From NCBI GenBank assembly GCA_947495135.1, contig CANLXN010000002.1:186001-250000 (forward strand): DNA of 64,000 nt, given 5' to 3'. Origin of the DNA: an uncultured Flavobacteriaceae bacterium. Lineage in GTDB: Bacteria; Bacteroidota; Bacteroidia; Flavobacteriales; Flavobacteriaceae. Of the stretch, positions 20,974 to 33,197 are shown in pieces. Every line of letters begins with the position of its first letter. The stretch's first letter is position 1. Below the pieces are notes generated by a model. It was not told the DNA's origin. It was given only the letters and a program-made list of their open reading frames with translations, and searched no databases. A program made the translations under genes and the position numbers.

Positions 20974-21459
20974 TTATAACTTTTCGAAGGTCAGTTGGTC
21001 TGTCCCACCGTTTCCTCCACTAACATCTATGAGTTCCATTTTGTTAGCACTAATAGAAACGATATCCCAGTCATCGTTTAAATCTTCAAAATCGTTGGTT
21101 TGAGGTACATTGAAAAAGATATTAAAATCGTCATCATCCGACGAGTTTCCATCATCATCACTAGACGAGTTCGAATCGTCGTCATCAACAGACCAAACAC
21201 CATCTACTGTTAAAGAACCTTTTACAGCGACGAGTGTTCCATCTGGATTAAACGAAAACTCGAATCCACTGAAATCTCCCGTTTCATCATCTCCAGAATC
21301 AATAAATCTGGTTATCTGCCAGGTGCCTGCTTCTGCAATTTGCATTGTTTCTTCTGCACTCGTAAGGTTAGAACTTTGGTCATCGCTGGAGTCATCAGAC
21401 TCACAAGAGATCAACCCCAGTATTAAAGAAGCCACTATTATTAAATTTCCAATTTTCAT
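20974..21459 (-). CDS. Single-domain lipocalin-like acidic lipoprotein
   Basis: The 161-residue protein carries a lipobox (LILGLISC, Cys19) followed by ESDDSSDD, a surface-export-like acidic start. The single domain (about 45-161) reads GTWQITRF, FSFNPDGTLVA, VDGVWSV, then an acidic insert, then NDDWDIVSIS and ELIDVSGGNGGTDQLTFEKL. It matches each of the three C-terminal repeats of the neighbouring 592-residue lipoprotein, so one gene probably arose from the other. It lies 23 bases after that gene on the same strand. The Asp/Gly-rich DVSGGNGGTD loop could bind calcium; this is inference. Confidence 0.75.
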   Translation of the reverse strand: MKIGNLIIVASLILGLISCESDDSSDDQSSNLTSAEETMQIAEAGTWQITRFIDSGDDETGDFSGFEFSFNPDGTLVAVKGSLTVDGVWSVDDDDSNSSSDDDGNSSDDDDFNIFFNVPQTNDFEDLNDDWDIVSISANKMELIDVSGGNGGTDQLTFEKL

Positions 21460-21482
21460 ACGCTCAGGTTTAATATTAATTA

Positions 21483-23261
21483 TTATAATTTTTCTAAAAT
21501 CAAGTCGTCAATTCCACCGTTACCACCACTTACATCTTGGAGTTCCACACGGGTTTGAGTAAAGTCAATTACATCCCAATTGTCATTAAATTCCTCGAAT
21601 GGTAATTGAATTCCAAAGTCCAATACTAAATCTAACTCGCCTGTACCTGTTACACTCCAAGTTCCGTTATTGGTATTACCGCCATTTGTAGCGACAACGG
21701 TCCCGTCTGAACTAAATTCGAGTTGATAACCACCGTAATCTCCAGTTTGATCTTCTCCATCTTCTGAATAGCTAGCTACGATCCAAGATCCTTCGATTAT
21801 TATCTCACTTAGATCTCCATTTCCACCTCCACAGGAACCGTCAAACGGATCTCGACCAAATGTGAGAGAATCGGTTCCGCCATTTCCACCACTTACATCG
21901 TTAAGACGAATAACACTTATATCAAATTCGATCACATCCCAATTATCATTTAACTCTTCAAATGGATCGTCATTTCCATTGTCATTAAAGTTCAAAACCA
22001 GCGCTAATCCATCACCATCATTCTGAACAATCCAATTTCCATTTCGGGTCTCGGTAGTACTTACAGCTGTAACACTTCCATTAGAGTTAAAAGAAAATTG
22101 GTAATCGATATAATCACAGGCATCGCCATCACCATCGTCCTCTTCGTACAGGTTCACATACCAAGAACCATCTGTTAAAACTTCAATTAATTGGTTAATT
22201 TCATTTCCACCACCGCTGGAAGGTTCTCTTTCGAAAACAAGAATATCTGTACTTCCATCGCCTCCACTTACATCGCGTAAACGGATAATATTTTCGTTGT
22301 ACTCCACTATATCCCAGTCGTCGTCGAGTTCATCAAAAGGATTGGTTGTTCCATAAAACAATGTCAATTCGGGATCATCGTCAGAGCTGTCAAGACCCCA
22401 AGTACCATTTATTGTCTGACTACTATTTACTGCTTGCGTAGTTTCATCTGTATCAAAACTGAATTCGTAATCAGCAAATAGTGCTGTTTGATCTATATCG
22501 TCAAAATAATTAGTGACATACCAAACACCTTCGGTCAAGTTTTCTACAAAGGCCTCTTCGTCAAAATTGTTATTGTCATCGTCACAATCAATACCGTCCA
22601 AAATATCTTCTAATTGGGTATTGCTTGTAATCTCCACACTTTCTCCATTCACGATAACTACAATAGGAAAATCCACGCTAAAGATCTCTCCTTCTTCCAA
22701 CCCTGTTAGAAATAGAAAGAGTTCAAGATTATTATTTACAGTAACTGTATCGGTTTGATCGTTGTTCGAATCAAACACAAAGAAGCTAACAGGGTATACT
22801 AACTGCACACAATCGATCGTATCTTCAATGTCATCAATTTCGCAACTGGCGATCAATGCATTTAGCTCTTCTTGATCGTTTATCTCAACTTCTGAAAAAT
22901 CACCTAGAATTACCGTTACAGGAAATGAAATTTCTACTGTATCCGTGTCATTTGGAAATTGATCAAAAATTTCTTCAACCAGATCAATATCATCTTCATC
23001 ATTAATAATCACTTCTTGTCCGTTGGCTATTACAGTTATAGGCAATTGTAGAGAGAAACAATCGCTTCCGTCAATAATATCATCCAAATCCCCATCGTTT
23101 TGAGTGGTCTGAATAATGAGACCAGTAAGAGGAGAATTCGCTGAAATCGTTCCCTCTGTATTGGTTTCATCTATAAATTCCTTTTCTTCTTTTTGACAAG
23201 AAGAGAACGTAAACATCGAAACTAACATAAATAATATAGCATAGCATTTTTTCGTTTTCAT
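21483..23261 (-). CDS. Large acidic lipoprotein: four-repeat domain plus three lipocalin-like repeats
   Basis: The 592-residue protein carries a lipobox (FTFSSC, Cys22) followed by QKEEKE, close to the flavobacterial surface lipoprotein export signal. Residues 66-226 hold four beta units (SDCFSLQLPITVIANGQ, VEISFPVTVILG, DCVQLVYPVSFFVF, FSVDFPIVVIVNG) that parallel the complete 217-residue lipoprotein at 14252. Three lipocalin-like repeats follow (about 242-345, 362-470, 488-592). Each runs W(Y/I)V, a FSF or LEF strand, NG(T/N)W and NDNWDV or DDDWDI, ending in DVSGG(N/D)G. The protein is very acidic. It is divergent from the second sigma gene and co-directional with the single-repeat gene at 20974. 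Confidence 0.78.
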   Translation of the reverse strand: MKTKKCYAILFMLVSMFTFSSCQKEEKEFIDETNTEGTISANSPLTGLIIQTTQNDGDLDDIIDGSDCFSLQLPITVIANGQEVIINDEDDIDLVEEIFDQFPNDTDTVEISFPVTVILGDFSEVEINDQEELNALIASCEIDDIEDTIDCVQLVYPVSFFVFDSNNDQTDTVTVNNNLELFLFLTGLEEGEIFSVDFPIVVIVNGESVEITSNTQLEDILDGIDCDDDNNNFDEEAFVENLTEGVWYVTNYFDDIDQTALFADYEFSFDTDETTQAVNSSQTINGTWGLDSSDDDPELTLFYGTTNPFDELDDDWDIVEYNENIIRLRDVSGGDGSTDILVFEREPSSGGGNEINQLIEVLTDGSWYVNLYEEDDGDGDACDYIDYQFSFNSNGSVTAVSTTETRNGNWIVQNDGDGLALVLNFNDNGNDDPFEELNDNWDVIEFDISVIRLNDVSGGNGGTDSLTFGRDPFDGSCGGGNGDLSEIIIEGSWIVASYSEDGEDQTGDYGGYQLEFSSDGTVVATNGGNTNNGTWSVTGTGELDLVLDFGIQLPFEEFNDNWDVIDFTQTRVELQDVSGGNGGIDDLILEKL

Positions 23262-23276: not shown

Positions 23277-23283
23277 GTTTTGT

Positions 23284-23291
23284 TATATTTG
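23284..23291 (+). promoter_or_regulatory. Candidate -7 box of the second sigma factor gene
   Basis: TATATTTG matches TAnnTTTG and lies 72 bases before the ATG at 23364. No correctly spaced -33 TTTG was found; the T-rich stretch just upstream belongs to the divergent lipoprotein leader. Confidence 0.35.
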
Positions 23292-23363
23292 AAACAGGTA
23301 TGCAACAGTTTACCCTACCCCTTATTCATTTTTTTTATTTTTCAATCAATAATTAACCTATCC

Positions 23364-23873
23364 ATGAGCGAATTAGAGAATGTTTGTAAAAAAGAGCATT
23401 TCAACAAGGTCTATAATGACCACTCACAAGCTATTTGGAGGTTTATATATTTTAAATGCGGGGATCAAGCTCAAGCAGACGATCTTGTGCAGGAATCGTA
23501 CGTAAAACTATGGCAGAATTGCGCAAAGGTTAGTGCTTCGAAGGCGAAATCGTATTTATACACCGTAGCCAATAATCTTTTTTTGAATGAAGTTGCTCAC
23601 AAAAAAGTTGTCTTGCAACATGCCAATTCTAAAAAGAAAACATTTAATAACCAATCGCCAGAGTACTTATTGGAAGAAAAAGAGTTTTACGAAAAGTTAC
23701 AGGCAGCAATAGCCAATCTTTCAGAAACCCAAAGAACTCCCTTTTTACTTAATAGAATTGAAGGAAAAAAATACAGCGAAATAGCCGAAATCTTAGGGAT
23801 TTCAGTGAAAGCAGTAGAAAAGCGCATGAGTCAAGCCTTGGCCATCCTTAGAAAGGAAATTGGAAATATTTAA
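23364..23873 (+). CDS. ECF-family RNA polymerase sigma factor (module 2)
   Basis: The 169-residue FecI-type sigma factor is a close paralogue of the one at 15010. Region 2 shows ADDLVQESYVKLWQNC and SYLYTVANNLFLNEVAHKK. Region 4 shows LSETQRTPFLLNRIEGKKYSEIAEILGIS and KAVEKRMSQALAILRKEI. The start was placed at ATG 23364 (MSELENVCKKEH), which aligns with the start of the paralogue. The open frame extends upstream to a TTG at 23280 that would add an unlikely hydrophobic leader. It is expected to be controlled by the FecR protein encoded next. Confidence 0.92.
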   Translation: MSELENVCKKEHFNKVYNDHSQAIWRFIYFKCGDQAQADDLVQESYVKLWQNCAKVSASKAKSYLYTVANNLFLNEVAHKKVVLQHANSKKKTFNNQSPEYLLEEKEFYEKLQAAIANLSETQRTPFLLNRIEGKKYSEIAEILGISVKAVEKRMSQALAILRKEIGNI

Positions 23874-23929
23874 AAATTAGGTAGGGTAAAAAGAAGTTGA
23901 ACTGTTCTAACTAAGAGGATTTAAATGCA

Positions 23930-24838
23930 ATGATGGATAAAAACTACATTTTACACAAATATTTAAATGGTAACGCGTCACCTGAAGAGCTTCAATTGCT
24001 CAAGGAGAGTCCTGAATATGCGGGATATTTTAAAATTGCTGCAGCTTCTGAAAATCTAGACACTCCGGTATTCAATAAGGAAGGCAATTTTGAACATCTA
24101 ACAGCGAAAATAGATCAGTCATCTAAAGTTAGAAAAATAAGTTTCGTTAAAAGTTTTGTGCGGATAGCCGCCATGGTCACTATATTACTAGGAGGGTACT
24201 ATTTCTTCTTTAGCGGAAATACAACTGTCAAAACAGACGTAGCCCATAAAGAATCTTTTTCACTTCCGGATAAATCGGAGGTAGTTCTAAATGCCCAGTC
24301 TGAAATTTTTTACGACCAAAAAAACTGGGAGAAAAAAAGAAGCCTAAACCTAAAAGGAGAGGCCTATTTCAAGGTAGAAAAAGGTGAGAAATTTTCAGTA
24401 ATAACACCCCAAGGAACGGTGAGTGTTTTAGGTACTCAGTTTAACGTATTTGCTCGCGACTCGACTTTTGTGGTTAAATGTTTTGAAGGATTAGTGCGAG
24501 TAGCTTTTAATGACACATTAGTAAATGTTCCCTTCGGAAATGTGTTAGAAATACGAAATAATGAGTTGATAATGAAAACCGAATTACATCAAGATTCTCC
24601 GAATTGGGTGTTAAACGAAAGTAGGTTTCAGAATGCCTCTCTTGCAACGGTCTTAGCCGAACTAAAAAGACAATATCCAGTTAACATAACTGCTCCAAAT
24701 GTAGGTGATAAAAAGTTTACTGGCGCATTTACGCATACTGATCTAAAGGTCGCGCTGCGTTCCATTTGCGACCCTTTAAAGTTAGACTTCACAATAAATG
24801 GTGATGAAATAAACCTCTATGCAAAGCAAGGGAAATAG
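23930..24838 (+). CDS. FecR-family anti-sigma factor (module 2)
   Basis: The 302-residue protein is built like module 1 FecR: a short cytoplasmic region, a membrane helix (about 76-94) and a periplasmic FecR domain (FSLPDKSEVVLNAQS, LKGEAYFKVEKGE, VLGTQFNVF, CFEGLVRV). The C-terminal receptor-contact domain shows LATVLAELKRQYPV and FTGAFTHTDLKVALRSICDPL. Two ATG codons stand side by side at 23930 and 23933; either could be used. It overlaps the receptor start by 20 bases, unlike module 1 where 2 bases separate the genes. Confidence 0.93.
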   Translation: MMDKNYILHKYLNGNASPEELQLLKESPEYAGYFKIAAASENLDTPVFNKEGNFEHLTAKIDQSSKVRKISFVKSFVRIAAMVTILLGGYYFFFSGNTTVKTDVAHKESFSLPDKSEVVLNAQSEIFYDQKNWEKKRSLNLKGEAYFKVEKGEKFSVITPQGTVSVLGTQFNVFARDSTFVVKCFEGLVRVAFNDTLVNVPFGNVLEIRNNELIMKTELHQDSPNWVLNESRFQNASLATVLAELKRQYPVNITAPNVGDKKFTGAFTHTDLKVALRSICDPLKLDFTINGDEINLYAKQGK

Positions 24839-27380
24839 ATGTACTCTCTTTACTGTTTTCATCCTTATCCTGGGAATGGGAATGAATTCCTTTGCCCAGA
24901 CAACAGAAACTGCTGAACTTCAATTAGTAATTGAACAATTGGAAAAACAATATAATGTGCGATTTTCGTATGTCCCCAAACAGCTCTCCGGAATTGCCGT
25001 GCTAATCCCATCCAATGAACTAGACCTAGCACAAGCCATAAAAAGTCTGGAACAACAGACTTCTTTGACCTTCAAAAAAATTGATGATCGTTACTTTTCA
25101 ATTTCAGAAAACGATCCAAAAGCTGGAAGTATATGTGGTCTTCTATTAAACCAGTGGACGGGTTTACCTCTCGAAGGTGCGCAAATATTTGTTGGCGAAA
25201 ATTTATATGCAACCATCAGTGACGCAAATGGCCGCTTCTTCATTCCAAAAAAATTTTCATCTGAGATAATACAATTTCAATTTCTTGGTTACGAGTCGAT
25301 GGAAATCAAGGGAATGGGGTCTAATCCAGAATGTGAAACTTTCCTAATGCAAGCCAGTATATTTGACCTAAACGAAGTTCTAATTGAACTTTTTCTAGTA
25401 AAAGGTATTCAAAGAAATTTGGATGGATCTACCAGTCTCAATGCCGAGAATTTCGGATTGCTGCCAGATCAAAATCAGAGTGACGTGCTTCAGATGACAC
25501 AGGTACTCCCAGGAATAGAAAGCAGTAATGAGACTATTTCAACTATTAACATGCGTGGAGGTTCTCATGATGAAAACTTAATTTTATGGGAAGGTGCGAG
25601 AATGTATCAAAACGGTCACTTTTTTGGCTTAGTATCACCTTTCAACCCGTATTTGACTTCGAAAGTTGAGGTATATAAAAATGGCACACCGGCTCATTAT
25701 GGGGAGAGTGTTTCAGGGGTTATCGACATTAAATCTAATGATCAAATTTCAAAAAAAATCAACGGTGGATTGGGCATTAACTTTCTAGATGCACAAGGAT
25801 TTATAGACATTTCCCTTTCAGAGAATTTCGGAATGCAATTATCCGTAAGAAGTTCAATAAACGGTCTCTTTGAAACCCCAGTTTACGATAATTTTACCGA
25901 GCGAATATTTCAAGATACCGAGATAACAAATGCCATAAACAGTATATCCAACGCAAGTTTAGTTACTAGACAGTCCTTTAATTTTTTCGATATTGGGGCT
26001 AAATTTTTATGGGACGCATCTGAAAAAGATCGAATAAGATTAAGTTTACTTACCATTGACAACGGCCTTGATTTTAATGAGAGACTCACCTTATTAGATC
26101 GCTCTACCAACAGTAACCTTGCACAAAGAAGTGCAATTGGGAGTTTGTCATGGCAACGCAAGTGGTCTCCAAAATATACAACCAACTTATCCATAGCCAC
26201 TTCCTATTATTTATTGGAATCCCTCAATCGAGATATATTCACCACCCAAGAAATATATCAAGAAAATGAAGTACTAGACCTGGGCATCAAATTAGACTTC
26301 CAATGGAAAATTGAAGACCAGTTAGAACTAAAATCTGGGTATCACTTCACAGAAACTGGTATATCAAATACTCAGGATGTAAACCTACCAAGATTTAGAG
26401 ACCTCACTAAAGATGTATTGAGATCACACATATTACATGGGAGTTTAATATGGACATCTACCGATGAAAACACCCAAATAACCGCTGGAGCTCGAGCAAA
26501 CTATTTTGAAAAATTCAAAAAAGCCATTCTAGAACCCCGATTGCATTTGTATCAGGAATTAGGTTCCAATTTTGGGATTGAGTTAGGAGGTGAGTTTAAA
26601 AGTCAGACTACCACACAACGCATCGATTTTCAAAGTGATTTTCTTGGGGTGGAAAAAAGGCGCTGGGTTATCTCTAACGATGCGGACGTTCCCATTAAAC
26701 AAAGCAAACAAGCTTCTGTGGGTCTAGTTTATAAAAAGAAAGATTGGTTTATAAATGCGGAAACATTTTATAAGAAAGTAACCGGTATCACCAGTAGAAG
26801 TCAAGGTTTTCAAAATCAATTTCAATTTATAAACACAACTGGCAGCTATGAAGTCCGTGGCCTAGAATTAATCGTAAACAAGTGGCAGAATAATTTTAGC
26901 GGGTGGATTAGCTATCGATATAATACGAATAAATATATTTTTGGTGACTTGACACCTACCATTTTTCCAAGTAATATTGATATTGAACATACTGGAACCC
27001 TTGCAGGCTCTTATGATTTAAATAATTGGAAATTTGCATTGGGATTCAATTGGCACAGTGGCAAACCATATACTAAACCCATAACTGGTGACGAGATTAT
27101 AACTGAAGGAGATGATGTTCTCATTAACTATTCCCGCCCCAATGAAGAACGGCTTCCCGACTACCTGCGCTTAGACGTGTCTACCGAATATCGATTGACT
27201 ATCTCCGATCAAACAGATTTAAAACTAAATTTAAGCTTACTCAATATATTAGACAAAGATAATATATTGAATATTCGATATGCCTTGGAAGAACAAGGGA
27301 GTGGAATTATCACATTAAAAGAAATTAAAGAAAGATCGTTGGGTTTCACACCTAATCTTTCTGCGCAGCTTCTATTTTAA
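24819..27380 (+). CDS. TonB-dependent outer-membrane receptor with STN signalling domain (module 2)
   Basis: The 853-residue paralogue of the receptor at 16483 has the same order of parts: signal peptide ending NSFAQ (about 27), STN domain (about 30-95), carboxypeptidase-regulatory-like domain (about 105-180, GSICGLLLNQWTGLPLEGAQIF shortened), plug with LPGIESSNETISTINMRGG, and a barrel ending in LSAQLLF. It starts inside the end of fecR. There is no SusD gene. It likely imports or senses a ligand and signals through FecR. Divergence between the two barrels suggests different or variant ligands. What is bound cannot be read from sequence. Confidence 0.92.
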   Translation: MQSKGNRCTLFTVFILILGMGMNSFAQTTETAELQLVIEQLEKQYNVRFSYVPKQLSGIAVLIPSNELDLAQAIKSLEQQTSLTFKKIDDRYFSISENDPKAGSICGLLLNQWTGLPLEGAQIFVGENLYATISDANGRFFIPKKFSSEIIQFQFLGYESMEIKGMGSNPECETFLMQASIFDLNEVLIELFLVKGIQRNLDGSTSLNAENFGLLPDQNQSDVLQMTQVLPGIESSNETISTINMRGGSHDENLILWEGARMYQNGHFFGLVSPFNPYLTSKVEVYKNGTPAHYGESVSGVIDIKSNDQISKKINGGLGINFLDAQGFIDISLSENFGMQLSVRSSINGLFETPVYDNFTERIFQDTEITNAINSISNASLVTRQSFNFFDIGAKFLWDASEKDRIRLSLLTIDNGLDFNERLTLLDRSTNSNLAQRSAIGSLSWQRKWSPKYTTNLSIATSYYLLESLNRDIFTTQEIYQENEVLDLGIKLDFQWKIEDQLELKSGYHFTETGISNTQDVNLPRFRDLTKDVLRSHILHGSLIWTSTDENTQITAGARANYFEKFKKAILEPRLHLYQELGSNFGIELGGEFKSQTTTQRIDFQSDFLGVEKRRWVISNDADVPIKQSKQASVGLVYKKKDWFINAETFYKKVTGITSRSQGFQNQFQFINTTGSYEVRGLELIVNKWQNNFSGWISYRYNTNKYIFGDLTPTIFPSNIDIEHTGTLAGSYDLNNWKFALGFNWHSGKPYTKPITGDEIITEGDDVLINYSRPNEERLPDYLRLDVSTEYRLTISDQTDLKLNLSLLNILDKDNILNIRYALEEQGSGIITLKEIKERSLGFTPNLSAQLLF

Positions 27381-27424
27381 TTTTAGCTTATACATACTTA
27401 AACTACCTGTTTTCATATAATTTG

Positions 27425-27492
27425 CTGTACTCAATGTTTTCTTTGATAGTAAACTCCCTGTAAAAAAGGAATTTAGCGGTGTTAAAATCTCA
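27425..27492 (+). promoter_or_regulatory. Shared promoter/leader element, copy 1
   Basis: CTTTGATAGTAA (27441-27452) is followed, 27 bases from the TTTG start, by the -7-like box GAATTTAG (27469-27476), and then by AAATCTCA (27485-27492) four bases before ATG 27497. The spacing is identical to the elements at 28195 and 29138. The most upstream block is only partly conserved here (11 of 23 positions against copy 2). Confidence 0.6.
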
Positions 27493-27496
27493 CACC

Positions 27497-28039
27497 ATGA
27501 AAAACTATATTCTTATCTGCGTAATTACACTATTTTTTCTACACACCAACAATACAAAAGCCCAGAATTGTTCACAAGGCCTCACTATGATTAACGACTT
27601 ATGGCAAAACTTCGATCCGTTAGATTTAATTAACGATAAGCAAGCGGTCAACTCACAGGTAAACAAATTAAAGAGCGAAGTAGCCTCGTTTGCTAAAATG
27701 AGCTTAAAGAAAGACGCCCCCAGATTGCTCCCCGTTGGTTCTTCCGAAAAGAAAATCAATTTAAAACACAATAGAAAACGAATTTTTGTCACCACCCCCA
27801 TCAAGCAAGAAAATATAGTGATAACTATTACACGACCAGAAACCGAGACGGAGGTTACCGTCGTGATTTGTTATCATACTTTAAAAGGGGAAAGCGCGAA
27901 CCTAGAACAAATTACTTTTGGAAAGAGTGAAGAAAAGGAAATTAGTATTCCTTTGGAAAACGTTCAAGGAAAAATATTAAGTGTTAATATTAAAAACGAA
28001 AGTCTGAAAAAAATAGCTTATCGCATCTCTGCTAGATAA
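27497..28039 (+). CDS. Secreted protein of unknown function, first of three with a shared promoter
   Basis: From ATG 27497 the product is 180 residues (MKNYILICVITLFFLHTNNTKAQ signal peptide region). A GTG six codons upstream is also open but lies in the conserved leader. The C-terminal half (about 95-180) is a beta domain ending in GKILSVNIKNESLKKIAYRISAR. It resembles both halves of the 246-residue protein at 28302, which end ...KVKIVNQSVANTFSYQLQI and ...KVELRNVSVGNTIKYRMNA. The mature protein is basic. No enzyme motif or known domain is recognised. A strong terminator follows, so it is probably monocistronic. Confidence 0.72.
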   Translation: MKNYILICVITLFFLHTNNTKAQNCSQGLTMINDLWQNFDPLDLINDKQAVNSQVNKLKSEVASFAKMSLKKDAPRLLPVGSSEKKINLKHNRKRIFVTTPIKQENIVITITRPETETEVTVVICYHTLKGESANLEQITFGKSEEKEISIPLENVQGKILSVNIKNESLKKIAYRISAR

Positions 28040-28060
28040 CTCCCCGTTTATGATTGAAGA

Positions 28061-28085
28061 AGAGCCGCAATAGCGGCTCTTTTTT
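28061..28085 (+). terminator. Intrinsic terminator
   Basis: AGAGCCGC (28061-28068) and GCGGCTCT (28073-28080) form a GC-rich 8-bp stem around the loop aata, followed by TTTTT. It lies 21 bases beyond the stop of the first secreted-protein gene. Confidence 0.93.
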
Positions 28086-28194
28086 ATTTACAGTAGTCCT
28101 AAAACTCTGCTACAACCACACTAATTTATATGCTAAAACAACCAAAGCAATTAGGCAAATTTCTTAAAAAAAACATCCCTACTGGAAATCATAC

Positions 28195-28297
28195 ATTTTC
28201 TACCTCTAATGGAATTCTTTGATAGCAAGACCGTTAAGCCAAAGTAATTTAGCACCAGAGAAAAACAATAACTAATATAAATTCAATTTAAATCTCA
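28195..28297 (+). promoter_or_regulatory. Shared promoter/leader element, copy 2
   Basis: ATTTTCTACCTCTAATGG then AATTC (28195-28217) matches copy 3 in 19 of 23 bases. TTTGATAGCAA follows, then TAATTTAG (28245-28252) exactly 27 bases from the TTTG start. AAATCTCA (28290-28297) lies four bases before the ATG. TAATTTAG resembles the TAnnTTTG -7 box, so the upstream block would be an activator site. Confidence 0.68.
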
Positions 28298-28301
28298 CAT
28301 T

Positions 28302-29042
28302 ATGAAAACTCTTAACACTAAACAAATTATGAACATTTCAAAATTAGCTCTAGTCGCTTTTATATTTTCGGCTTTTACATTTCAAATGCAAGCGCAAAGC
28401 TGTGCAACTACTTTAAAGTCGAAAAGCGGAAAAGTATACTCTGCAAATCCAGCGACTATTAAGACCACTTCTTCTTCAAATCAAGTAACGGTAAGAATGA
28501 GAAAGACTGCTGGTAAGGCAGAAACTCAAGTTAACTTTTACATCGATGGGGTTCAACAATCTCAGGTATTGGAATATGATAATGGAACTTATATTCCGTC
28601 GGGATGGCAAACAAGAACGTTCCCAAACATGAATGGGAAGGAAATCAAAGTAAAAATTGTAAACCAATCTGTTGCGAATACTTTCAGCTACCAGTTACAA
28701 ATCAATGGAGAAAGAAGGTCTGTTGCAAGCACAGGTGGACCAGTAGACGGAAATCTTGTTGGGCAAACCAATAAGACTATTTATACTAACGGATCATGTA
28801 CTCCTAACACACGTGTAATTGTTCGCAGAAGAGGTGGTAAAGCTCGTGCAAACATTAGAGTTTGGGAAAAAAGAAGCAATGGTACATGGAGACGTTTAGA
28901 CCAGTACAATCAGACACTAGAGAAAAATCAAAACATGAAAAACTTTGTAGTGAACTCTAGAAGAGAGCTAAAAGTAGAACTTCGTAATGTATCGGTTGGA
29001 AACACCATCAAATACAGAATGAACGCCTTAGCTTCAAACTAA
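28302..29042 (+). CDS. Secreted basic protein with two related domains
   Basis: This 246-residue exported protein has a signal peptide ending MQAQS (about 32). Two similar domains follow. Domain A (about 40-137) shows VTVRMRKTAGKAETQVNFYIDG and then KEIKVKIVNQSVANTFSYQLQ. Domain B (about 150-244) shows TRVIVRRRGGKARANIRVWEKR and then RELKVELRNVSVGNTIKYRMN. Both contain a (K/R)GKA turn and end in the same beta-hairpin pattern, which also closes the protein at 27497. It is strongly basic, consistent with binding a polyanion or the cell surface. A second methionine at residue 10 could also start translation. The function is unknown. Confidence 0.72.
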   Translation: MKTLNTKQIMNISKLALVAFIFSAFTFQMQAQSCATTLKSKSGKVYSANPATIKTTSSSNQVTVRMRKTAGKAETQVNFYIDGVQQSQVLEYDNGTYIPSGWQTRTFPNMNGKEIKVKIVNQSVANTFSYQLQINGERRSVASTGGPVDGNLVGQTNKTIYTNGSCTPNTRVIVRRRGGKARANIRVWEKRSNGTWRRLDQYNQTLEKNQNMKNFVVNSRRELKVELRNVSVGNTIKYRMNALASN

Positions 29043-29062
29043 CAGATCAAGTTGATGTTTAC

Positions 29063-29104
29063 AGGCCAGCTTCCTCCGCCTATTGAGAAGGAAGCTGGCC
29101 TTTC
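29063..29104 (+). terminator. Intrinsic terminator
   Basis: AGGCCAGCTTCC (29063-29074) and GGAAGCTGGCCT (29090-29101) form a perfect 12-bp stem followed by TTT. It closes the 246-residue gene, 20 bases after its stop. Confidence 0.92.
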
Positions 29105-29137
29105 TAATTGTAAGAAACGTCCTAACAGAATTCTGGT

Positions 29138-29215
29138 ATTTTTTACCCCTCATAGAATTCAATGAAGCCCCTTTAGCCTAGTCGAACTACCTTAGTACAA
29201 CCCTTAAAAATCTCA
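29138..29215 (+). promoter_or_regulatory. Shared promoter/leader element, copy 3
   Basis: ATTTTTTACCCCTCATAG then AATTC (29138-29160) matches copy 2 in 19 of 23 bases. TACCTTAG (29188-29195) lies at the same 27-base offset as in the other copies. AAATCTCA (29208-29215) lies two bases before ATG 29218. Confidence 0.65.
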
Positions 29216-29217
29216 TC

Positions 29218-29814: not shown

Positions 29815-31851
29815 TTGACACTACTTTTTTCTTTATCAACCATACTTTTTAAACTCAAAATTAGGCATAGCCTGCTCATCTGCTTTATCATCTTACCGAT
29901 AGTTTGTTTTTCGCAGCAGCCAGAGATATCCAAGGAAGAGCAAATGAATCTAGTAATTTCTTCTCTTGATACAATTGACGGGAATTTGAACAAGGTGAAA
30001 ACACTTACCACCTTAGCGGGACAGAATAGATATATTCCCGCTACCAGAAAACTAATAGATAAAGCACTCGATATTTCTTCTATTATTGACGAACCACGGC
30101 TAAAGGCACACTCGTATTACTCGCTAGGTAATTATTATTATTACAACTCAAAAACAGATTCTTGCCTTTCAGCAATGGACAAGGCACTGAAATATGTCGA
30201 ACAAACTGAAGATCCGCTACTAAAATCTTCGATTCTATCCACTAAGGGTGGAGCATATACCAAACTAGGAGCAGTAATACTTGCTATTTCAACCAGTATC
30301 GAGAGTGGAAATATTCTTGAGAAAATAGATACACTCCAACTTACAGAAGATGAATTAAAAAAGTATAAAGGACAGCAACTAGTATTAAATAATAGTCTTG
30401 CCAATTTGTACAATAGTACTGAAGACTTCGACACAGCGATTGAATATTATGACAAAGCCTACGACGCAGCAGTAAAATTAGGATCCCTACCTAACGGCGC
30501 AATTATCTTAAACAACAAAGGTGATTTACTTATAAAAATAAACAAGTTAGAGGAAGGTCTTGAAGTACTAAAACTATCAAAAGAGCAAAAATTGGACGCT
30601 GGACTTCCAGCACGATATATTGCTAGATCCGATCTAAACATTGGTATGGCTACTTACGCCATGGGCAACTACGACGATGCGCTTAAAAGTTATGAAAGCG
30701 CCTTAACTGTTTTTGAAGAAGGCAATAACGAACTTGGTATTTTACAAGTACTTGGAGAACGTGGAATACTATATAACAGTTATGGAAGACACGAAGCAGC
30801 CATAATGGACTGCGAAAGGTCGAAGCAACTTGCATTAAAAATAGACGATTCTGAATACCTGATGAAAACTTGTAATTGTCTCTATGAAGCGAATAACGCG
30901 TTGGGGAATTATGAAACCTCTCTAAAAAACCACGAAATGTACAGCAGGGTGAAGGATTCCATCTTTAACGAAAAAAATATCCGAAAAATCACTCAAGTGG
31001 GAATGCAGTACGAATTCGATAAAAAAGAGGCCGAACAACAACTCATTATTGAAAAAAAGAACCGTCAGAAAAATCAGATTTTGGTTGGGCTTTTTGCTCT
31101 GATTGTATTCGCATTTATGATTTTCATATTTTTCAAGAAACGCCTAAAATACACCAGAACAATCGCCGCGAAGAACAAAGCTATTCAGCAACAAAAAATC
31201 ACCCAACTTCAGCAAGAAAACAAATTAACCGCCATGAGCAGCATGATCGAAGGACAGGAGGCAGAAAGACTCCGTATTGCCAAAGATCTCCACGATAGTT
31301 TGGGCGGACTCCTGAGTACAGTGAAAGCACATTTTGGCTCAATTCAGAAAGAGAAAACCGACTTATGCGATATCCCACTTACGGACAAAACCAGTAAGTT
31401 AATTGACGAAGCCTGTATTGAAGTACGTAGAATTTCACATAATATGATGCCCCACGCGCTCAGCATTTCTGGATTAGAAGGCGCCATTCAGGACATGACT
31501 GAAAATCTCAACGAACAATCGTACGACGCCACTTTTGAAGCAAACTCAGTTCCAAAATTAGAATCCACTAGAGAGATCATGATTTACAGACTTATACAGG
31601 AAATTGTATCGAATATCCGTAAACATGCAAATGCTAAGTCCATTTTGATCCAACTGTTAGGCCTTAATAATGAAGTCCACCTTCTCATCGAAGACGATGG
31701 TAAAGGTTTTAATTACGAAGAAGCCGTTCAAAAAAACGGCCTTGGATTAAAAAGCATTAACAGTAGAGTCGAATTTCTAAATGGGCGTATAAATTGGGAT
31801 AGTGAAGTAAGTAAAGGAACAACCATCAACATAAACATTCCGGTATCATGA
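29815..31851 (+). CDS. TPR-containing sensor histidine kinase (HisKA_3 type)
   Basis: The 678-residue sensor has an N-terminal signal or anchor (about 18-34), extracytoplasmic TPR-like repeats (about 60-390, e.g. YYSLGNYYYYNSKTDSCLSAM and MATYAMGNYDDALKSYESAL), a membrane helix (about 421-440) and a coiled coil (445-485). The phosphoacceptor motif RIAKDLHDSLGG contains His493. The ATPase domain has QEIVSNIRKHANA, DDGKGF and GLGLKSI. No ATG lies before the signal sequence, so TTG 29815 is the likely start. Its stop overlaps the regulator start (ATGA, 31848-31851). Such kinases pair with NarL/LuxR regulators; the signal is unknown. Confidence 0.9.
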   Translation: MTLLFSLSTILFKLKIRHSLLICFIILPIVCFSQQPEISKEEQMNLVISSLDTIDGNLNKVKTLTTLAGQNRYIPATRKLIDKALDISSIIDEPRLKAHSYYSLGNYYYYNSKTDSCLSAMDKALKYVEQTEDPLLKSSILSTKGGAYTKLGAVILAISTSIESGNILEKIDTLQLTEDELKKYKGQQLVLNNSLANLYNSTEDFDTAIEYYDKAYDAAVKLGSLPNGAIILNNKGDLLIKINKLEEGLEVLKLSKEQKLDAGLPARYIARSDLNIGMATYAMGNYDDALKSYESALTVFEEGNNELGILQVLGERGILYNSYGRHEAAIMDCERSKQLALKIDDSEYLMKTCNCLYEANNALGNYETSLKNHEMYSRVKDSIFNEKNIRKITQVGMQYEFDKKEAEQQLIIEKKNRQKNQILVGLFALIVFAFMIFIFFKKRLKYTRTIAAKNKAIQQQKITQLQQENKLTAMSSMIEGQEAERLRIAKDLHDSLGGLLSTVKAHFGSIQKEKTDLCDIPLTDKTSKLIDEACIEVRRISHNMMPHALSISGLEGAIQDMTENLNEQSYDATFEANSVPKLESTREIMIYRLIQEIVSNIRKHANAKSILIQLLGLNNEVHLLIEDDGKGFNYEEAVQKNGLGLKSINSRVEFLNGRINWDSEVSKGTTININIPVS

Positions 31852-32492
31852 TAAATGTATTTATAGTAGACGACCACAAAATGGTTATAGAAGGGCTTAA
31901 ATTATTACTACAAAATGAAGAAAACATCCAAGTTGTAGGGTTCGCTCTAAGCGGAGATGAGGCCTTGGAGGAGATTCCTAAGCACGAAATCGATGTAGTT
32001 TTACTAGACATTAATATGCCGGGCATGAATGGAATTGACACTTGTAAGAAACTCCACAAAACGCACCCTAAAATAAAAGTAATCGCTATTTCAATGCACA
32101 AAGAAAGCAGCCTCATAAAACTAATGCTTGGCAACGGTGCAAACGGATATGTCCTCAAAAATGCTGGACAGGAAGAGGTAATTACCGCAATTACTTCGGT
32201 CTACGAAGGCAAAAATTATTTAGACGATACCGTAAGCGAAATTGTACTCAACGCTTTGGTAAACAAGTCTGAGCAAAAGAGCAAAAGTCCGTTTCCGTCT
32301 TTATCTAGAAGAGAAAAGGAAATTTTAGAATGTATCTTAGACGAGCGAACTACCAACGAAATTGCAGATAAACTTCACATAAGTTTTGGTACCGTAGAAA
32401 CCCACCGAAGAAATATGCTCATCAAAACTGGTGCAAGAAACACAGCCGGTCTGGTCCGAATTGCATTGGAATATGAACTCCATAAAGCCTAA
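31848..32492 (+). CDS. NarL/FixJ-family response regulator
   Basis: The 214-residue regulator has a receiver domain (1-120) with acidic Asp8-Asp9, phosphoacceptor Asp54 in VVLLDINMPGMNG and a conserved Lys near 103 (VLKNAG). A LuxR-type helix-turn-helix (about 148-208) carries LSRREKEILECILDERTTNEIADKLHIS and VETHRRNMLIKTGARN. It overlaps the kinase gene by 4 bases, so the pair is co-translated. Its DNA target is unknown. The shared upstream element of the three secreted-protein genes just before the pair is an obvious candidate. Confidence 0.95.
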   Translation: MINVFIVDDHKMVIEGLKLLLQNEENIQVVGFALSGDEALEEIPKHEIDVVLLDINMPGMNGIDTCKKLHKTHPKIKVIAISMHKESSLIKLMLGNGANGYVLKNAGQEEVITAITSVYEGKNYLDDTVSEIVLNALVNKSEQKSKSPFPSLSRREKEILECILDERTTNEIADKLHISFGTVETHRRNMLIKTGARNTAGLVRIALEYELHKA

Positions 32493-32513: not shown

Positions 32514-33197
32514 ATGAAATCTTACATTTTTGGAGCGGCTATCGCCTTGCTCCTCACCGCCTGTGCGTCTGATACAGAACAAAAAGGTCTCGACTATATC
32601 GCACAAATTTATGATGGAAACGCTTCTTATTCGAAAAGTGTTGAGACTAACCTTGGCCAAGAAACCATGAAGAAGTTTAACGTAAAACTGTCTGGAAGTA
32701 AGATGATTGACAGTCTTAAACCAACCGTATCTACTGCAAATATTGCACTACTAATGTACCAGAGTTTTACTCCAGAGGAACAAAAAAACTATACCCATAT
32801 TGATGTAGAATTAGTCAATGCAAAAAATGATACGGTCTCCTATTACTACCCTACCGAAGTTATGCAAGGGATCGACAAAAAGGCACTTTCGTTTCATCGA
32901 TTTTCTGAGAGCCTCATAGAAGGAGATTATCGCAAGCTGGATATCCTTACAGACAAATCGCATATTCCTGGATCTATTGCCAAAGCAATGCAGGCCGAGA
33001 TTGAAAAGTATGAAAAAGTCTATGGCAATCTCTTGTCGTACGAACCCTTTGGATTAGCAGAAGAGAAGCATCCTAAAGGCGCTTTTTATCAATTTCAAGG
33101 TAATTTACAGTTTGAAGACGGAACAAAAGTACCTTACTTCGTCGTAGTCTTAACCGCTCCCGACAATAACCAAGTTGTTGGCTTTAAAGTGTTTTAA
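32514..33197 (+). CDS. Lipoprotein of unknown function
   Basis: The 227-residue protein carries a lipobox (IALLLTAC, Cys17). The mature part is an alpha/beta region with MKKFNVKLSGSKMID, then FHRFSESLIEGDYRKLDIL and a C-terminal beta segment (FQGNLQFEDGTKVPYFVVVLT shortened to FVVVLTAPDNNQVVGF). It suggests a small cystatin/NTF2-like fold, but no family is named with confidence. It follows the response regulator by 21 bases in the same direction, so it is probably co-expressed. It converges with argS with a single base between the stops. Confidence 0.68.
   Translation: MKSYIFGAAIALLLTACASDTEQKGLDYIAQIYDGNASYSKSVETNLGQETMKKFNVKLSGSKMIDSLKPTVSTANIALLMYQSFTPEEQKNYTHIDVELVNAKNDTVSYYYPTEVMQGIDKKALSFHRFSESLIEGDYRKLDILTDKSHIPGSIAKAMQAEIEKYEKVYGNLLSYEPFGLAEEKHPKGAFYQFQGNLQFEDGTKVPYFVVVLTAPDNNQVVGFKVF

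Follow-up and report, generated by a model that had tools for sequence, protein, structure and literature searches.

The window, the 64-kb stretch of DNA analysed here, corresponds to C2:186001-250000 of a 4.29-Mb Flavobacteriaceae genome. Within it, genes for an ECF sigma factor, a FecR protein and a TonB receptor are followed by three secreted-protein genes, termed A1, A2 and C, and then by genes for a TPR histidine kinase, a LuxR-type response regulator and a lipoprotein-like protein, after which lies the convergent argS (Table 1). Many relatives have the same gene order, often with an extra A-family gene ahead of C, and in four loci of the same genus an M28 peptidase gene is found between the receptor and the A gene. 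Pfam analysis matched the regulator encoded at 31848 to the receiver (PF00072, 5.5e-30) and GerE (PF00196, 7.3e-16) domains and the kinase to HisKA_3 (2.9e-07) and HATPase_c (2.6e-11), and the frames of kinase and regulator share 4 bases. LuxR-type regulators were numerous, with tens of candidate places per genome in most of the genomes listed in a loose initial search. On the minus strand at 20974-23261, divergent from the ECF gene, are two lipoprotein-like genes with repeated, similar Asp/Ser-rich units.

The three secreted-protein genes had been read as unrelated to one another. This held for C, for which protein comparison found no relation to A1 or A2, but not for A1 and A2. Direct comparison of these two proteins was poor (best E 0.09); a one-domain relative in locus L175 matched A1 (E 2e-20) and both halves of A2 (2e-15 and 8e-8), and because both match this relative we regard A1 and A2 as distant paralogues. 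The predicted folds of A2 (pLDDT 74) and C (pLDDT 79) were both beta-rich. Since PDB matches to the two models were weak among the matches listed (TM ≤0.45 on the query), we offer 'beta-sandwich-like' as the label for these predicted folds and nothing more specific.

Table 1. Features of the locus in window coordinates.
Feature	Position	Strand	Remark
ECF sigma, FecR-like anti-sigma, TonB-dependent receptor	23280-27380	+	frequent upstream neighbours of the cluster
Dyad 1 of A1, TACCTGTTTTCATATA	27404-27419	+	core at 27409
Dyad 2 of A1, TCAATGTTTTCTTTGA	27431-27446	+	core at 27436; includes the TTTG of the sequence-only reading
-7-like box of A1, GAATTTAG	27469-27476	+	TA missing; putative start ~27481; box position as in the accessible text of PMC9723704
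AAATCTCA leader motif of A1	27485-27492	+	
Gene A1, secreted A-family protein, 180 aa	27497-28039	+	no Pfam match above cut-off
Hairpin after A1	28055-28086	+	-22.2 kcal/mol
Dyad 1 of A2, TACTGGAAATCATACA	28180-28195	+	core at 28185
Dyad 2 of A2, TAATGGAATTCTTTGA	28207-28222	+	core at 28212
-7-like box of A2, TAATTTAG	28245-28252	+	putative start ~28257
AAATCTCA leader motif of A2	28290-28297	+	
Gene A2, secreted two-domain A-family protein, 246 aa	28302-29042	+	
Hairpin after A2	29063-29101	+	-25.8 kcal/mol
Dyad 1 of C, TAACAGAATTCTGGTA	29123-29138	+	core at 29128
Dyad 2 of C, TCATAGAATTCAATGA	29150-29165	+	core at 29155
-7-like box of C, TACCTTAG	29188-29195	+	putative start ~29200
AAATCTCA leader motif of C	29208-29215	+	
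Gene C, conserved secreted protein, 180 aa	29218-29760	+	
Histidine kinase: TPR repeats, HisKA_3, HATPase_c	29815-31851	+	start codon provisional
Response regulator: receiver + GerE (LuxR/NarL type)	31848-32492	+	proposed activator
Lipoprotein-like protein, before convergent argS	32514-33197	+	conserved in many clusters

A promoter-like element precedes A1, A2 and C

One promoter-like element of about 86 bp was found upstream of 27497, 28302 and 29218. It is made up of two 16-bp dyads, TN4GAWTTCN4A, set 27 bp apart, and a -7-like box, TAnnTT[T/A]G, 33 bp past the second GAATTC. The sequence-only reading had proposed that the same layout recurs before all three start codons, and this was borne out with R1, a sequence-only profile built from 22 relatives' copies with the window omitted and the -7 columns included. 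R1 recovered the three window copies at 66.2, 37.0 and 31.5 bits (E 1e-19 to 7e-9) and gave no further match in the 64-kb window at E up to 10. A recount of the block shared between the copies at 28195 and 29138 again gave 19 of 23 identical bases, and the block starts where the first dyad ends and reaches into dyad 2. The upstream string described as common to the first two copies is TTTGATAG, found at 27442 and 28218, with AATGAAGC at the matching place in the third copy (29161). The first dyad, which is absent from that reading, has its core 27 bp ahead of the second core in all three window copies. A TAnnTTAG-like box was said to lie 27 bases from the TTTG in each case; the spacing stood, but the TA is missing in the first copy (GAATTTAG, compared with TAATTTAG and TACCTTAG). 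The A1 copy is degenerate in its cores as well, both of which read GTTTTC.

Local alignment of the 130-bp upstream regions gave a score of 23.5 both for copies 1 and 2 and for copies 2 and 3; shuffled sequences averaged 13.3 and 12.4 (sd 2.0-2.2) and reached at most 20 and 22.5 (n=300). The score for copies 1 and 3, 10.5, was at chance level. As a motif by itself TTTGATAGNAA was uninformative, with 37 genome matches against 34 in the reversed control, and so was a scan for E. coli-type sigma-70 promoters (20 sites against 16.4 expected).

The geometry is constant in related loci

To define the element, 53 upstream regions belonging to A, C and adjacent genes were examined, taken from the window and 20 loci. 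With the spacings left free, the best layout was 27 and 27 bases in all 25 regions that passed a seed score of 27, the window copies included, and in all 25 the core-to-core distance was 27 bp and the distance from the second GAATTC to the -7-like box 33 bp. L094_A', one base shorter with a score of 25, was excluded, and the start used for the regions L057_A', L058_C and L059_C lay a few bases away from the true one. For the consensus the spacing was fixed. The 22 copies from relatives align without gaps and give ccTacnnGAATTCATAnATTTTT, then CTannnGaaTTCTTTGATa, then TActTTAGca, and in these copies the letters between the boxes vary while the boxes and the spacing stay. Only two of the 21 C regions (those of the window and L090) have their own copy, C elsewhere usually lying close behind an A gene; at the named Ulvibacter locus L178 (U. 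litoralis DSM 16195), which holds three copies, one stands directly ahead of C.

Nineteen hand-chosen profile hits were added to the copy set; the hits excluded comprise, among others, L091:9868, L092:4324, L093:9510, L094:10003 and 9531, L096:6122, C4 of the window's own genome, G007:C14 and the named-relative loci. Over 44 copies, counted in fixed columns that read copies with 26-base spacing one base out, box 1 had the outer T in 41, G in 44, C in 44 and the outer A in 44, and box 2 had them in 40, 39, 38 and 39, respectively. The dyad layout is compatible with 7-2-7, with 16 bp and the heptamer TN4GA. Half-site agreement was no better than column composition for box 1 and only slightly better for box 2, in a comparison where the -7 offset was chosen and ties were resolved towards 27. 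Two dyad hits at L183:10770-10863 (genome G198) run in opposite directions from a common place and may mark a divergent element.

The -7-like box and the TTTG

When the two-box pattern was searched without -7 information, 20 sites were found in 13 of 397 family genomes, all 13 of which carry the regulator, and the reversed two-box control gave 0 sites in all 397. TAnnTT occurred at exactly +33 in 17 of the 20 sites, and any other offset between 15 and 55 had it in at most one. The box at +33 took the form TAnnTTAG in 10 sites, exact TAnnTTTG in 4 and bare TAnnTT in 3, with TAnnTT[TA]G in 14; two of the three sites lacking TAnnTT there have no ORF ≥90 aa close behind. The strict two-box and +33 counts are independent of the -7 columns in R1.

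In Bacteroidota sigma-A promoters a -33 TTTG lies some 19 bases upstream of the -7 box. Among the 44 copies, TTTG was found at spacers 15-22 before the -7-like box in none and at spacer 23, inside dyad 2, in 20, and TTG alone at spacers 16-17 in four. The distance from TTTG to the box is longer than in a normal promoter, as had been claimed, but the TTTG belongs to dyad 2. It is not a displaced -33 element, because in several out-of-cluster copies ATAG replaces it (TTTCATAGA) while the geometry stays. The accessible text of PMC9723704 and PMC6847099 describes Flavobacterium sigma-A promoters as TTTG / TAnnTTTG. The element resembles these promoters in carrying a box of TAnnTT type where their -7 box lies, of which exact TAnnTTTG is a minority form, and differs from them in that the box is mostly TAnnTTAG and an operator-like dyad takes the place of TTTG at -33. 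TAnnTTGY, given in the available part of PMC9723704 as the motif of an alternative sigma factor, fits two sites, TATTTTGC and TATCTTGC. The sigma factor using the element is probably the housekeeping one, an assignment that is uncertain because TTAG prevails, exact TAnnTTTG is found in 4 of 20 sites and a few boxes contain TTGC.

Copies elsewhere in the genome and their putative target genes

A genome-wide search with a motif built from the copies, as the sequence-only reading had suggested, yielded two further good copies, each before an unrelated secreted-protein gene. In the window's own genome R1 gave 12 hits, namely the three window copies, these two and seven weak ones (E 0.0036 to 0.35), among which C4 was inspected. 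The copy at C10:29803 (39 bits) lies upstream of a secreted CPPGAWCHP-type protein, and that at C3:93385 (25 bits) stands before a secreted protein of 1002 aa that matches YadA-head and C1q. The strict two-box pattern matched the 4.29-Mb genome three times (the A2 promoter, C10:29803 and C3:93385) and its reversed control 0 times. Random positions of the blocks would have spoken against the earlier reading, but all three strict matches have a -7-like box 49-69 bases before a start codon.

Inspection and Pfam analysis showed that the genes behind the element encode A, C and CPPGAWCHP proteins, the kinase itself, a cytochrome-like/kinase/regulator operon, C1q/YadA-head, FG-GAP and beta-helix-like proteins, and others, making at least nine types by inspection, several of them on other contigs. 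Because secreted C1q/YadA-head, FG-GAP, beta-helix-like and small Cys-rich proteins are among them, the putative target set suggests a surface or adhesion programme. The long secreted proteins with an element comprise C1q/YadA-head (L131, G000:C3:93385), C1q (L133) and FG-GAP (L132) proteins recognised by Pfam, and three assigned by look (L136, L170 and L191); before these genes the second box is often more palindromic. Two genes, which we take to be GH92-like and asparaginase-like, recur ahead of the long secreted-protein genes in G002, G007 and the window's own genome. Small Cys-rich secreted proteins of one family, sharing CPPGAWCHP(D/N)G, are recurrently found behind the element (L082:6496, L130:5952 and L173:6799), and two members tested had no Pfam match.

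Co-occurrence of the element with the regulator

Across the 397 family genomes, searched for the element with stricter filters by which weak copies can be lost, the element was found in 22 (R1, E 1e-5), the regulator orthologue in 24 (E 1e-70) and protein C in 21. All 22 element genomes carry the regulator, and at the threshold applied the element was missing from all 373 genomes that lack the regulator, which argues for the link to the regulator at 31848 that had been proposed; since kinase and regulator travel together, co-occurrence alone cannot name the binding protein. Fisher tests, in which the genomes were treated as independent though related, gave P values of 4e-34 for element and regulator and 5e-22 for element and C. 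The element genomes span 15 genera and are mutually related, and in-cluster copies are partly homologous.

Protein C is present in 17 of the 22 element genomes. In the five without it (G064, G080, G251, G265 and G324), kinase and regulator lie close to an element, which in G265 stands directly before the kinase. Four genomes have C and no element, three without the regulator (G201, G321 and G374) and one with it (G020). In the regulator genomes G020 and G198, the copies are weak or rearranged. An order-level sample of 167 genomes adds little, as element and regulator were found only in the window's own genome.

Leader motif and hairpins

An identical box had been reported two to four bases before each start codon, and indeed AAATCTCA ends 4, 4 and 2 bases ahead of A1, A2 and C, respectively. 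It was rejected as a general start signal, the pattern AAATCTCAN{1,6}ATG having 26 genome matches against 25 when reversed. It is nevertheless enriched before element genes: ATCTCA was found within 30 bases of the start in 3/3 window genes, 6/22 relatives, which are not independent, and 4/325 control ORFs (≥200 aa), which may include element genes; it is missing before 16 of the 22 relatives' element genes. AAATCTCA is separate from the element, and is a real but patchy, minor leader feature. According to the accessible text of PMC6847099, translation in F. johnsoniae benefits from adenines at -3, -6, -12 and -13.

Strong terminators were said to close two of the genes. The hairpins after A1 and A2 are stable folds (Table 1), but neither was among the 8 sites listed by a simple terminator scan (4.4 expected). 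Between C and the kinase there is no strong hairpin in the window (-4.1 kcal/mol). Given this arrangement of hairpins, the copy before C probably also drives kinase and regulator, which would be positive autoregulation.

A candidate activator-dependent promoter

Comparative evidence, namely the fixed geometry, the presence of the element ahead of non-homologous genes elsewhere and its co-occurrence with the regulator, favours the earlier suggestion of a selected, activator-dependent promoter. We consider it likely that the three regions represent the activator-dependent promoter element of the adjacent two-component system's regulon and would be bound by the regulator at 31848. With the flavobacterial sigma-A -7 box at -12 to -5, where the available text of PMC9723704 puts it, the dyads would be centred near -42.5 and -69.5 from the putative start. 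In the proposed mechanism, two regulator dimers would bind the two tandem 16-bp dyads of putative 7-2-7 geometry. The nearer dimer would stand in for the missing -33 element and recruit an RNA polymerase that most likely carries the housekeeping sigma factor to TAnnTT[T/A]G in a class-II-like manner, and the second dimer, at about -69, would assist. As 27 bp corresponds to about 2.6 helical turns, the two dimers would lie on different faces of the helix. The targets would be mostly secreted or surface proteins from unrelated families. We infer binding, activation as opposed to repression, the sigma factor, the start sites and autoregulation alike from sequence.

Other explanations were weighed against this one. 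The element could be an operator through which the same regulator represses, and NarL-type regulators do also repress according to the accessible text of PMC4549865. We judge this very unlikely, as the sites lie upstream of the -7-like box and not over it, TTTG is at its usual place in 0/44 copies, and the fixed dyad-to-box geometry would be expected for an activator. We also think it very unlikely that the ECF sigma / FecR / TonB-receptor system encoded upstream has the element as its promoter or operator. In 18 of the 22 element genomes the trio, whole or partial, does adjoin the cluster, and several of the stretches end inside the trio, but G064, G080, G251 and G390 have element and regulator with no trio match within the 14-19 kb examined. 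Furthermore, the flavobacterial ECF-type motif has CGT in the -10 region in the available part of PMC9723704, whereas the consensus at the -7 place is TActTTAGca, without CGT.

The paralogy of A1 and A2, the clear alignability of copies 2 and 3 and the position of most of the copies first found in one cluster would also be consistent with leftover homology, that is, tandem duplication of a secreted-protein gene together with its upstream region and with no regulator involved. Set against this are gene C, for which no relation to either A gene emerged, the at least nine gene types behind the element (by inspection), several on other contigs, the constancy of boxes and spacing with variable letters between them and the co-occurrence with the regulator, and we regard duplication as extremely unlikely.

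The heptamer consensus of NarL is TACYYMT. The activator-dependent reading has a counterpart in the 7-2-7 sites of E. coli NarL at napF (-40 to -49) and yeaR (-38 to -47), both of which are activated according to the accessible text of PMC4549865. The two systems are alike in that the response regulator has a GerE domain and would be alike in having a site that adjoins the -35 region of an activated promoter, and the 16-bp dyads may likewise be inverted heptamers around a 2-bp centre. They differ in that the element has the heptamer TN4GA and two tandem sites at a rigid 27 bp, and its system a Bacteroidota RNA polymerase and a TPR-type kinase in place of the nitrate sensor. A literature search, judged largely from the starts of abstracts, brought up no description of the element, the regulon or the regulator that we recognised; two papers contain the string TATGAATTCATA. 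The candidate regulon would be new, and of a known kind, that of a NarL/LuxR-type response regulator.

More tentatively, and as something we hold to be somewhat short of probable, the element may define a Flavobacteriaceae promoter class in which the -33 contact is supplied entirely by a LuxR/NarL-type regulator, bound as two dimers at a rigid tandem spacing of 27 bp. With positive autoregulation, this regulator would switch on a regulon of surface proteins (A-family, C, C1q/YadA-head, FG-GAP adhesin-like and CPPGAWCHP proteins), and AAATCTCA would be an extra regulon-specific layer in some lineages. An operator that can be read from sequence, with its exact geometry, target list and linked regulator, is directly testable. 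It may also help to explain activator function at a polymerase that uses promoters unlike those of model bacteria, and it brings several uncharacterised families of secreted proteins together in a single candidate surface programme.

Relatives of protein C

Named public relatives of C were found in Altibacter, Ulvibacter litoralis, Allomuricauda and other Flavobacteriaceae, and in three Cyclobacteriaceae/Cytophagales MAGs (L180, L181 and L182), of which L180 was excluded from the alignment owing to an in-frame stop. Protein C of these three MAGs is 64-69% identical, and the stretches examined contained no kinase or regulator match and no element. The presence of C in this setting may point to horizontal transfer.
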